A stretch of 64,000 nt of DNA, taken from contig CANMUP010000001.1 of the NCBI GenBank assembly GCA_947501105.1, positions 372,001-436,000 of the forward strand, given 5' to 3'. Below, in pieces: positions 19,137 through 22,137 of the stretch (position 1 is the stretch's first letter; each line of letters begins with the position of its first letter). The notes under the pieces were generated by a model. The model was not told where the DNA came from, did no database searches, and saw nothing but the letters and a program-made list of their open reading frames with translations. The stretch is from an uncultured Flaviramulus sp. GTDB taxonomy: Bacteria > Bacteroidota > Bacteroidia > Flavobacteriales > Flavobacteriaceae. Made by a program: the position numbers and the translations under genes.

Positions 19137-19337
19137 TTACATCATCATACTGCCGCAAATGCCCAGACTTATTATTACGTATATGGCAGCGAGAATAAAT
19201 AGCACTTTTGCTGCTTTTTTGTTTTTTTTGAGTATTGCAAACCCAACAATAGTTAATAGAATTGCTGGACCAAACATAATGGCGATAATTAAATAAATCA
19301 AACCATCTAAATTCATGTTTGGGCTTAATAGAATCAT
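19137..19337 (-). CDS. small two-helix membrane protein, paralogue of its upstream neighbour
   Basis: With the start at ATG 19337 the product is 66 residues with two membrane helices joined by a Lys-rich loop (ILKKNKKAAKVL). It aligns along its whole length with the preceding 68-residue protein: GPAILLTIVGFAI matches SPAIIMTIIGFAI, and KAAKVLFILAAIY matches KSAKVLFIIATVY. I prefer ATG 19337, one base after the upstream stop, over 19370, which would overlap the upstream gene by 32 bases. It is the last gene of the Lgt-like/radical SAM operon. Function is unknown. Confidence 0.72.
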   Translation of the reverse strand: MILLSPNMNLDGLIYLIIAIMFGPAILLTIVGFAILKKNKKAAKVLFILAAIYVIISLGICGSMMM

Positions 19338-19338
19338 A

Positions 19339-19545
19339 TTAATTAGATAATATTGCGCCACAAACACCAAGTCCTATAATGGTATAAACGGTAGCTATTA
19401 TAAACAATACTTTGGCAGATTTAGGCTTATTTTTTTTAATTGCAAAACCTATAATTGTCATTATTATTGCAGGACTTAATGCAATAATTAGAAAGAATAG
19501 GACTAGCCATATAAAACCATCACCTATTTCCAGAAAACGTATCAT
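19339..19545 (-). CDS. small two-helix membrane protein
   Basis: The 68-residue product has two membrane helices (about 10-33 and 44-66) separated by the basic stretch KKNKPKSAK. Its ATG overlaps the stop of the radical SAM gene (ATGA), indicating translational coupling. The next gene encodes a paralogue, so this is a tandem duplication. I recognise no named family. Small paired proteins in such an operon could be subunits or adaptors for the membrane enzyme encoded upstream; that is inference only. Confidence 0.75.
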   Translation of the reverse strand: MIRFLEIGDGFIWLVLFFLIIALSPAIIMTIIGFAIKKNKPKSAKVLFIIATVYTIIGLGVCGAILSN

Positions 19546-20936
19546 ATCAATTCTTGTCTAAGTTCTTCTAACCGTTCTTTTTTGTCATCCCTATAAAACA
19601 AATTCATGGTTTCAAACGGAATAATTTTATTGTCTTTATCTACAATATGCACGCACGATTTTTTAATGGCCCGCACATCAAAATTGTAAGCATCAATAAA
19701 TTGCATGATAATAACACGAAATAAATTGTCGTAACCCAGGTTTGGCGCATCAATATTTGGTAAACAACACATAATAGATTTTAAATTTTCTTCAGCAACT
19801 TCAACGGAATTTCCAGTGCTAAACAGTTCAATCATCTTTCCGTGTAGACTTTCGTCTTGTTCATAAATGATGGTGTTTTTACTATTATCTAATAAATCAT
19901 TCGGATTGATATATCGTGTTAGGGGAAATACTTCACCGTCTAATTTTAAGGCATACCCCATAACTAAAGCATCAGGATTGCAAGGCACAGGTAATAAATC
20001 GTCTGGATTAAAAATAGTGGTTTGCTCTAATATTTTTCTTCTTACTTCAGTTAGGGTCATTCTATCCGTTTCAGGATTAAAATTATCTAACCGTCCTGCA
20101 ATTTGTGTAGGCTGTAGTGTGACACCTCGAACACATTTTTGTTGGAGCGCGTAGTCAATTATTTTTCCAATTTCGTGGTCATTCAAACCTTTTTGAAGAG
20201 TTACAACCAAGGTGGTGGACAAATTGAGCTTATTAAGATTTTCTAATGCTTGTTTACGAATATCATTCAAGTTTGCACCTCGTAATTCTTGTAGCACTTC
20301 ATTTTCAAAAGAATCAAATTGTAAATAAATTTCAAAATCTGGAGCATAACTTTTAAGTCGTTCTGCGAAAGCAAAATCTTTAGCAATTCTAATACCGTTT
20401 GTGTTTAACATTAAATGCCGAATAGGAAGCGATTTAGCATAATCTAAAATTTCAAAAAACTGTGGATGAATGGTAGGTTCGCCACCTGAAATTTGAACCA
20501 CATCAGGCTCTTTTTCATTTTTTACAATAGTGTCGAGCATGGTTTTTACCTCATCCAAAGTACGATGCCTTCCATAAGTTGGAGAAGACCCTGCATAGCA
20601 AGTTGGACAGGTTAAATTGCAACGATCGGTTACTTCAACAACGGTTAAGCAAGAATGTTGCTCGTGGTCTGGACATAAACCGCAATCGTACGGGCAACCA
20701 TAATGTGTTTTGGTGTTGAATGTGTAAGGTGTTTCGCTTGGCTTATTGTAGTTCCTTATATTTTTGTAATATTCAATATCATCAGCAATTAATACTTTAG
20801 AATTACCGTGTTCATTGCATCGTTTTAACATGTAAACCTTATCATTTTCAAATACTATTTTGGCATCAACCCGCTTTAAACATTCGGGACACAGACTTAA
20901 AGTAAAATCGTAGTAGGTATATTTTCTAACGGGCAT
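19542..20936 (-). CDS. radical SAM enzyme with extra N-terminal cysteine clusters (MJ0619/Tes-like)
   Basis: The 464-residue protein has an N-terminal zinc-ribbon-like module with C16, C19, C40 and H43. A second cysteine cluster follows (C81, C85, C88, C96; YGCPYDCGLCPDHEQHSC), then the radical SAM motif C106-x3-C110-x2-C113 in VTDRCNLTCPTCYAG and the SAM-binding QISGGEPTIHP. This order resembles the family that includes archaeal MJ0619 and tetraether synthase, enzymes that work on unactivated carbons of cofactors or lipids. The substrate here is unknown. Its start overlaps the Lgt-like gene by 11 bases, and its stop overlaps the next small gene. Family placement is from remembered motifs; radical SAM itself is certain. 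Confidence 0.87.
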   Translation of the reverse strand: MPVRKYTYYDFTLSLCPECLKRVDAKIVFENDKVYMLKRCNEHGNSKVLIADDIEYYKNIRNYNKPSETPYTFNTKTHYGCPYDCGLCPDHEQHSCLTVVEVTDRCNLTCPTCYAGSSPTYGRHRTLDEVKTMLDTIVKNEKEPDVVQISGGEPTIHPQFFEILDYAKSLPIRHLMLNTNGIRIAKDFAFAERLKSYAPDFEIYLQFDSFENEVLQELRGANLNDIRKQALENLNKLNLSTTLVVTLQKGLNDHEIGKIIDYALQQKCVRGVTLQPTQIAGRLDNFNPETDRMTLTEVRRKILEQTTIFNPDDLLPVPCNPDALVMGYALKLDGEVFPLTRYINPNDLLDNSKNTIIYEQDESLHGKMIELFSTGNSVEVAEENLKSIMCCLPNIDAPNLGYDNLFRVIIMQFIDAYNFDVRAIKKSCVHIVDKDNKIIPFETMNLFYRDDKKERLEELRQELI

Positions 20937-21669
20937 ATTTTATATTTTGAATGATGAATTTCGAATAATAGAACCAACAAATTACACATAAAAGTTGAAT
21001 AGTACTTAGCCCAAGAATATAAAACACATTCGGTTTTAAAAACTCTATGAAGAACCGAAAGCCAAAGTACAGTACCATAAACCATTTAAACAAGTCTCCG
21101 TTTTTTAAACTACTGCGTTTTTGTATATGTTTTAAACTAAAAAAAAGGATGCTTAGAAAAACCAATTCATATAAAGATGTTGGATGGCGTAATATGTTAT
21201 CACCTAGATTCATACCAAAAACGGATGCTGTCTCAATACCATAAGTGAACTCATTAATTCCAGACAGAAAGCAACCTATTCTACCTATAAAAATTCCAAT
21301 AATAATAGGGAGTACAAATAAATCTCCAGAAGATTGTGTTTCGCCAATGCGCTTTTTAGCAAATTCTACACCCAACAAACCACCAAATAACCCACCCATT
21401 ATGGTTTTAGTGTTGAGTAATTGAATGAAGATTTCTTTGGAAAATTCAATCATTGGGTTTTCTAAAAAACCAATTAACCGCGAGCCCACTAAAGCACCTA
21501 AAGCAGCACCTAGAATAATAGACAACCTATTGTTTGAAGAAATGACGTCATTACTTTTTCGCCTTAAAACCACATAATATCTATAAGCAACAAAAAAAGC
21601 TAAGTATTCTAAAACTAAATGGATATTGATATTAAAACCGAAGAGTTGAGGTTCAAATGGAATGTGCAA
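20926..21669 (-). CDS. Lgt-like integral membrane protein (prolipoprotein diacylglyceryl transferase family)
   Basis: The 247-residue protein has about seven membrane helices and the Lgt landmarks GSRLIGFLENP, TIMGGLFGGLLG, GRIGCFLSG, RHPTSLYE and FGFRFFIEFLKP. In E. coli Lgt the third motif reads GRxGNFxNG with an essential Asn; here that Asn is Cys and the next Asn is Ser. It may therefore bind a phospholipid without doing the standard diacylglyceryl transfer. The start is TTG (21669), since no in-frame ATG fits and the opening MHIPFEP suits the family. It is the first gene of a four-gene overlapping operon with the radical SAM enzyme. Confidence 0.8.
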   Translation of the reverse strand: MHIPFEPQLFGFNINIHLVLEYLAFFVAYRYYVVLRRKSNDVISSNNRLSIILGAALGALVGSRLIGFLENPMIEFSKEIFIQLLNTKTIMGGLFGGLLGVEFAKKRIGETQSSGDLFVLPIIIGIFIGRIGCFLSGINEFTYGIETASVFGMNLGDNILRHPTSLYELVFLSILFFSLKHIQKRSSLKNGDLFKWFMVLYFGFRFFIEFLKPNVFYILGLSTIQLLCVICWFYYSKFIIQNIKYAR

Positions 21670-21750: not shown

Positions 21751-22137
21751 ATGGCTTTCAAAAAACAAAGTTTCATTTTTAAAATACATTTAATCATTTC
21801 GGTAATTATTGTAATTCCTGTTGCTTTAATTTATGGGTTTGCACCCGATTCTGAGTTTGATATCCATTTAAATACCGTTGATGAGCTTAATGCTTTTAAA
21901 GCTTTTATGGGCATGTATATAGGGTTTTCATCACTTTGGATACTCGGTATTTTTAAAGCAAAATATTTTAAAATGGCTTTGGTAACCAATATGGTTTTTA
22001 TGCTCGGTTTAGGTTTAGGAAGACTCATTAGTATAGTAATCGATGGTGTACCAACAAATGCTTACGTATATGGGACAATAGCCGAATTGATACTAGGATT
22101 TTATGGTATTTGGGTGTTAACAAGAAAAAAATGGTAA
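21751..22137 (+). CDS. DUF4345-type membrane protein
   Basis: The 128-residue protein has four membrane helices and the pattern of DUF4345, including YGFAPDSEFDIHL, KAFMGMYIGFSSLW and LGLGRLISIVIDG. The biochemical role is unknown. It is divergent from the Lgt-like operon and 23 bases upstream of dusB on the same strand, so it may be co-transcribed with dusB. Confidence 0.78.
   Translation: MAFKKQSFIFKIHLIISVIIVIPVALIYGFAPDSEFDIHLNTVDELNAFKAFMGMYIGFSSLWILGIFKAKYFKMALVTNMVFMLGLGLGRLISIVIDGVPTNAYVYGTIAELILGFYGIWVLTRKKW

Follow-up and report, generated by a model that had tools for sequence, protein, structure and literature searches.

Lgt of E. coli (phosphatidylglycerol:prolipoprotein diacylglyceryl transferase), tetraether synthase (Tes), which joins the lipid tails of archaea, the TrsS (seleno)protein, the MYXO-CTERM proteins with their myxosortase, and the lipidated small peptides called DAG-RiPPs (RiPPs being ribosomally synthesized and post-translationally modified peptides) are the described systems closest to the gene cassette reported here. 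In E. coli Lgt, the crystal paper ties Arg143 and Arg239 to the activation of phosphatidylglycerol (PG), and His103 to the peptide side (PMC4728403). Tes, a radical S-adenosylmethionine (radical SAM, rSAM) enzyme also called GDGT-MAS, is the same protein as MJ0619, and when made in E. coli it is reported to bind bacterial phospholipids (PMC9433317); 456 bacterial homologs of it have been reported, for which membrane-spanning lipids are merely suggested as the product (PMC8941075). The MYXO-CTERM proteins carry an invariant cysteine near the C-terminus beside a helix, and an Lgt-like lipidating enzyme has been postulated for them; their cysteine precedes the helix, and the C-terminus is cytosolic and Arg-rich (PMC11980579). 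The DAG-RiPPs (DybA/DybH) are lipidated small peptides of Bacteroidota that take the ordinary N-terminal lipoprotein route and depend on an MNIO enzyme (PMC12636315). The present locus lies in a window of 64,000 nt from an uncultured Flaviramulus sp. (assembly GCA_947501105.1, contig CANMUP010000001.1, positions 372,001 to 436,000), where four minus-strand open reading frames (ORFs) within positions 19137-21669 encode an Lgt-like protein, an rSAM enzyme and two small membrane proteins, A and B (Table 1).

Compared with the MYXO-CTERM arrangement, the cysteine of this cassette follows a helix that is preceded by a positive loop, and the cassette has a dedicated Lgt paralog as well as a radical SAM enzyme. 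No description of the lgt-like/rSAM pairing was found among the papers listed in the literature searches, most subscription journals and bioRxiv being outside their scope; PMC8939145 and PMC3877243 name both enzymes but do not treat the pairing in the passages searched, nor does PMC12419801. As far as these searches reached, the enzyme families have been described singly, but not the acceptor and its motif, an Lgt subfamily altered in this way or the union with a Tes-type enzyme.

That the four window genes are one copy of a conserved cassette is well supported. As the earlier note on this DNA had claimed, they form an operon, with an overlap of 11 bases between the lgt-like and rSAM genes, an overlap of 4 bases between the rSAM gene and the gene for protein A, and a 1-base gap between the genes for A and B. 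An lgt-like gene is linked to the rSAM gene in 104 of 117 loci, a count that leaves out the visible duplicates L096, L165 and L173, and a short-flank lgt-like match (within ~1.5 kb) is present at 37 of the 41 full-length-type rSAM loci; the genes surrounding the cassette vary between loci while the cassette itself stays. Six of the 13 loci without a linked lgt-like gene (L097, L101, L105, L142, L147 and L155) are cut by contig ends near the expected place. The pairing, whose absence from relatives would have refuted the earlier note, is conserved, and the system is not special to the group of the window genome: among the best 80 of 566 confirmed candidates of a species-genome scan, ranked by likeness to L058 and the source of the named loci of that scan, cassette records are labelled Bacteroidota, Cyanobacteriota, Bacillota (Paenibacillus, Clostridium, Bacilli), Chlorobiota, Ignavibacteria, Elusimicrobiota, Coriobacteriia, Patescibacteria and Pseudomonadota (Reyranella), many of them being metagenome-assembled genomes (MAGs). 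The rSAM gene was found at no less than 68% identity in 5 of the 31 genomes of a first survey, the window genome included. At a limit of E 1e-40, a sample of 345 genomes of the class had it in 22 and one of 296 genomes of the phylum in 26, the two samples overlapping; in the genus relatives G001 and G003 none of the cassette-type rSAM, the lgt-like gene and the small protein was seen. Such a patchy spread suggests an accessory trait. Two side observations concern single loci. In L085 (5678-7952, minus strand), the rSAM gene is separated from the gene of the small Cys protein by an RloB-like gene (PF13707, 88.7 bits) and an AAA_21 ATPase gene (104.5 bits), an arrangement that looks like the insertion of a defence-like pair; and the contig of L115, titled Limnohabitans (Pseudomonadota), carries a cassette rSAM that groups with Flavobacterium and is probably part of a misbinned MAG.

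The two enzymes also keep together across whole genomes, the lgt-like gene being scored as present at E 1e-15 or better. In the phylum sample, 25 of the 296 genomes have the lgt-like gene and 24 have both (Fisher p = 6e-32, kinship uncorrected), and among 292 genomes of the cyanobacterial phylum to which L110 belongs, 9 have the rSAM, 8 the lgt-like gene and 8 both (Fisher p = 8e-15, kinship likewise uncorrected); this co-occurrence rejects the idea that the genes are chance neighbours. The rSAM gene stands alone in G424 and G446 of the phylum sample, and its neighbour in G446 is a divergent lgt-like gene (25% identity). A profile of the window-type small protein (A3) matched strongly (E < 1e-15) in 11 of 60 relatives, of which 10 have the rSAM gene; in the eleventh, G006, whose genome is 80% complete, the rSAM was not found. 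Two rSAM-bearing genomes among the 60, G022 and G323, gave weak A3 matches only, and their small proteins are of another type, encoded between the lgt-like and rSAM genes.

Most informative in the cassette are its two tiny membrane proteins, since they carry a conserved cysteine, which the earlier note had missed. Neither A nor B gave a match over cut-off in Pfam/NCBIfam profile searches. A cysteine stands at the end of the hydrophobic stretch in 97 of the 98 linked loci (98 of the 104) that have an adjacent small transmembrane (TM) ORF, compared with 258 of 1374 other TM ORFs of the same loci (18.8%), many of which are surely spurious, and the loci of this census are not independent. Cys-bearing small ORFs of 40-150 amino acids (aa) adjoin the enzymes in 99 loci (one in 69, two in 25 and three in 5), as counted by an automatic filter under which some ORFs are spurious. 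Seven linked loci failed the Cys filter: L059 has the Cys by eye, the Cys of L126 ends helix 1, the small gene of L085 is 2 kb away, the contigs of L112 and L145 end at the rSAM gene and ~300 bases beyond it, respectively, and no Cys-bearing small ORF was seen nearby in L109 and L119. By the same filter 24 of 172 adjacent TM ORFs are without Cys; several of them look spurious or like DUF4395, and those of L073, L157 and L169 have the Cys by eye. When 154 small proteins were clustered by BLAST at 1e-6, they formed clusters of 113, 10 and 3 (DUF4395) members, five pairs and 18 singles, and at the laxer limit of 1e-3, 136 of them joined one cluster, so that true homology may extend to many of them and may lower the number of independent cases behind the conserved Cys.

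Within the cluster of 113, no column other than that of the Cys (112 of 113 members) reaches 95% conservation, and the Cys is kept in distant cassettes whose rSAM is near 40% identity. Position -4 from the Cys is Gly in 100 of all 154 proteins, and position -2 is Gly, Ser or Ala in 134; the motif [GS]x[GSA]xC fits 101 of 134 proteins, whereas the canonical lipobox, [LVI][ASTVI][GAS]C, fits 1 of 134, by which a canonical lipoprotein precursor is rejected. The tails after the Cys mostly have 3-14 residues, and in the 16 window-type rows Pro25, Gly60, Cys62 and Gly63 are invariant. The AlphaFold2 (AF2) model of protein A is a helical hairpin (residues 10-36 and 41-67; pLDDT 79.0, pTM 0.52), for which a fold search returned nothing significant, the best hit being an ATP-synthase c-subunit hairpin at E 2.2. 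The loops before the Cys helix hold 485 Lys and Arg against 97 Asp and Glu, and are net positive in 137 of the 154 proteins, negative in 5 and neutral in 12, a caveat being that some of the ORFs counted are DUF4395 or spurious. From this charge pattern and the positive-inside rule we infer the topology: the Cys is predicted to lie at the outer end of the helix, at the outer face of the membrane, which also makes it unlikely that the Cys is a ligand of the rSAM cluster. At the N-terminus, 22 of 141 small proteins that are otherwise dissimilar (window 19500-19545; also L068, L093 and L094) share a short motif resembling LLEVGNLxGL, a possible recognition sequence. As a side observation, in G737 (Bacillota), whose rSAM groups with Paenibacillus, the small protein encoded upstream of the lgt-like gene (L275:6448-6744) has a Cys-rich, zinc-finger-like N-terminus and a helix ending LLAICGAMIFSY.

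The lgt-like gene product matches LGT (PF01790) with 90.5 bits, above the cut-off, and falls below that of the TIGR00544 equivalog (41.5 bits; cut-off 118.9). Its AF2 model (pLDDT 90.8, pTM 0.88) matches E. coli Lgt (5azb) with Z 14.7 over 237 aligned residues (rmsd 4.8), the next entry having Z 7.6, and a Foldseek search gave E 5.8e-6 for the Lgt fold. In an alignment of 105 rows, in which the duplicates L165 and L173 are still included and some rows are fragments, the residues of the PG site are kept (E. coli numbering): Arg143 and Arg239 in 105 rows each, Tyr235 in 104, and an acidic residue equivalent to Glu243 in 105 (E 75, D 30); Gly154 is likewise present in all 105. On the other hand, the signature Asn146 (GRxGN) is replaced by Cys in 105 of 105 rows and Tyr26 by His in 92, His103 is lost, and the head loop ahead of RHP is shortened to 5 residues at the median, compared with 28 in E. 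coli and 42 in the canonical Lgt of the window genome. This pattern of kept and altered residues suggests a retained PG donor site and an altered acceptor site. The earlier expectation of an Lgt relative that binds PG-like lipids holds for the homology and the PG-site residues; residues that canonical Lgt needs are missing. Nor is the paralog an ordinary duplicate Lgt, as it is without His103 and Asn146 and lives beside the one other Lgt homolog of the 4.19-Mb window genome, which scores 185.7 bits and keeps both residues. In all ten cassette genomes tested a further Lgt homolog, judged by bit score alone, reaches 131-278 bits versus 66-135 for the cassette copy, so that the paralog is hardly the housekeeping enzyme.

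The rSAM protein matches Radical_SAM (PF04055, 92.7 bits) and PF23545 (71.2 bits; zinc ribbon, MJ0619 family) above their cut-offs, and by phmmer it is closest to 7tol (Tes) in the PDB, with E 1.2e-71. Its best NCBIfam score is for the TrsS radical SAM (seleno)protein (333 bits; cut-off 490), followed by Tes (NF045702, 296 bits; cut-off 450), both far above MoaA and other cofactor enzymes; by score it does not fall among the cofactor enzymes, a grouping that would have refuted the earlier note. The three cysteine groups which that note had seen in the Tes order are present (CX2CX20CX2H; CX3CX2C plus His; CX3CX2C), and 44 to 46 of 47 rows retain each position of the rubredoxin-type motif, the N-terminal cluster ligands and the RS cluster. 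As to the C-terminal auxiliary cluster, the equivalent of MJ0619 C456 (numbering inferred) and a new Cys at residue 319 of the window protein are both found in 47 of 47 rows. The rSAM tree was a quick one of 63 rows with long branches (L059, L060, L272, L273), MJ0619 being its sole named Tes row and its cassette rows a selection of 47 loci, eight without a linked lgt-like gene. In this tree a set of 14 rows (support 98), consisting of MJ0619, L060, nine TrsS and three others, holds none of the 47 cassette rows, and the cassette rows are separated from TrsS alone with a support of 99, and from all other rows with 82; L060, which has no linked lgt-like gene, hence falls on the Tes side. The nine TrsS stretches (L262-L270) showed other neighbour genes and no Lgt. 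To judge from its sequence, the rSAM is a Tes/TrsS relative outside both groups. TrsS is rejected on the score, the tree and the neighbourhood, and a true Tes likewise, as far as a quick tree with one named Tes row can tell. In comparison with Tes, Tyr459 is not kept and the C-terminal Cys set appears changed. Of the earlier likening to MJ0619 and tetraether-synthase-like enzymes, the Tes-type cysteine layout stands; by score and by this tree the enzyme is not a tetraether synthase. Single in-frame stops were observed in three rSAM matches, namely TAA in L253 (G623, Clostridium lacusfryxellense, the genome of L099), TAG in L029 (G162) and TGA in L295 (G1036, a cyanobacterium), which are either decayed copies or sequence errors.

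The modification of a membrane lipid or a lipoprotein anchor, which the earlier note had guessed at, is supported as the likely function of the cassette. Specifically, we infer a dedicated lipidation module in which the Lgt paralog would diacylglycerylate the Cys of the small protein and the rSAM would alter the lipid, a reading whose chances we regard as about even. In this proposal, the last helix of the small-protein hairpin would run from inside to outside and end in Gly-x-Gly-x-Cys, placing the Cys on the outer side of the inner membrane, which is the site at which Lgt enzymes act. The paralog would bind PG through the equivalents of Arg143, Tyr235, Arg239 and Glu243, and pass the diacylglyceryl group to that Cys instead of an N-terminal lipobox; the lost His103, the short head loop and the invariant Cys at position 146 would fit an altered acceptor site. 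Taken by itself, the transfer of a diacylglyceryl group to the small-protein Cys appears probable. The cytosolic rSAM, with its Tes-like layout, would abstract hydrogen from a lipid tail and so modify the lipid, either in the donor phospholipid or after its attachment to the protein, and might join tails by C-C coupling; this lipid-tail chemistry on donor or product is a tentative suggestion that falls just short of an even chance. What would result is a small protein integral to the membrane, whose near-C-terminal Cys bears a specially processed lipid. In its boldest form, which we consider rather doubtful, the Cys of the integral hairpin would be bound by the Lgt paralog to a lipid with rSAM-coupled tails, giving a new class of lipoproteins that are pinned by a membrane-spanning or macrocyclic lipid in many phyla.

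Several observations weigh against this proposal. Position 103 is His in none of the 105 lgt-like rows (V 54, M 28, A 10, L 7, I 4, T 1, gap 1), and His103 mutants of E. coli Lgt are reported not to complement (PMC4728403), so that the transferase activity of the paralog is not assured. The equivalents of MJ0619 C455 and C470 are kept in 2 of 47 rows each (numbering inferred), and all 8 rows compared have I or V at the position of Tes Tyr459, as inferred from the alignment. No export is predicted for the rSAM and the Cys would lie outside, so that this enzyme and the Cys could not share a site directly. Three genomes (L062, L064, L065) have an lgt-like gene elsewhere, unlinked to the rSAM; no lgt-like gene was seen in the sequence stretch examined for L149, L152 and L160; G105 has the lgt-like gene without the rSAM, and the cyanobacterium G911 the rSAM without the lgt-like gene. 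Finally, loci of the Reyranella type have the Cys at the end of the first helix and not the last.

The alternative that survives best, although we hold it to be unlikely, is a complex that modifies lipids without any protein lipidation, in which the paralog would present PG, the rSAM would couple or alter its tails, and the hairpin would be a scaffold using its Cys for a disulfide or a contact. Such a complex would agree with the loss of His103 and Asn146 from the paralog and with the resemblance of the rSAM to Tes, membrane-spanning lipids having been suggested as the product of bacterial Tes homologs (PMC8941075). However, it does not account for the conservation of a Cys alone in the small proteins, or for the location of that Cys at the terminus of a helix that looks like a lipobox-bearing signal peptide.

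Cys peptides are common targets of radical SAM enzymes, and the small protein could also be a RiPP-like precursor that the rSAM would crosslink, by a thioether or C-C bond, at the Cys or close by, and that the Lgt paralog would lipidate or anchor. The two or three Cys-bearing small ORFs in 30 of the 99 loci (by the automatic filter) and the recurrent LLEVGNL-like N-terminus speak for such a maturation; yet the Cys is predicted to be outside and in the membrane, away from the cytosolic rSAM, no leader is common to all the small proteins, and among the best 25 of 61 NCBIfam matches of the rSAM no peptide-maturase model is over its cut-off, the top two being TrsS and Tes. We regard it as improbable.

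A further reading starts from a five-gene form of the cassette in loci of Ignavibacteria, Chlorobaculum, Elusimicrobia, Clostridium, Bacilli and Coriobacteriia. In this anaerobe-type cluster the gene order, read mostly by eye, is rSAM, ICMT-family methyltransferase, DUF4395, lgt-like and small Cys protein; its Pfam names rest on L098 and L099, with ICMT-family scores of 48.4 and 49.0 bits (cut-off 24). In eukaryotes the ICMT family acts on lipidated cysteines, ICMT being known above all as the methyltransferase of prenylated cysteines at C-termini, and the presence of the gene hints at a lipidated cysteine as the theme of the cassette. It might even suggest a CAAX-like C-terminal anchor, with clipping after the lipidated Cys and, in the anaerobe type, methylation of the new carboxyl by the ICMT-family enzyme; relatives in the ICMT/PEMT group also methylate lipids and thiols, which counts against it. 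We consider this anchor very improbable: the short tails after the Cys, the gene order and a parallel proposed in MYXO-CTERM proteins (PMC11980579) would suit it, but no protease gene was noticed in the cassette, no search aimed at proteases having been made, and ICMT was not seen next to the rSAM in the inspected Bacteroidota, Paenibacillus and cyanobacterial cassettes, where no profile search was made.

If the lipidation module proposed above is real, it would give a function to part of the bacterial tetraether synthase homologs, it would extend Lgt-type chemistry to a second kind of acceptor, and it would offer a candidate enzyme type for the lipidation step postulated for near-C-terminal cysteine anchors (PMC11980579). 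The conserved cassette hints at a new way of making a lipid-modified membrane protein, and the hypothesis is directly testable, because the presumed substrate, its site and the enzymes share one short operon.

Table 1. Genes of the cassette in the window.
Feature	Coordinates	Strand	Description
lgt-like gene	20926..21669	-	247 aa, TTG start; Lgt paralog, GRIGC replacing the GRLGN signature
Radical SAM (rSAM) gene	19542..20936	-	464 aa, ATG start; Tes/TrsS superfamily, in the tree outside both groups
Small membrane protein A gene	19339..19545	-	68 aa, ATG start; two-helix, Cys62 near the end (IGLGVCGAILSN)
Small membrane protein B gene	19137..19337	-	66 aa from ATG; same Cys motif as protein A (ISLGICGSMMM)

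The start given for protein B by the ORF lister is a TTG at 19370, which would make it overlap the gene for protein A. A scan for promoters and terminators gave counts no higher than in shuffled sequence. In G818 (Bacillota; L272-L273), the rSAM and lgt-like pair is preceded by a small protein ending VVLCF, and ~35 kb off there are two further divergent rSAM genes near a gene that is ICMT-like by eye. Directly upstream of the window cassette lies a divergent DUF4345 gene (PF14248, 85 bits; window 21751-22137), and in the sister genome G002 an ORF of equal size and orientation occupies the same place upstream of the cassette.

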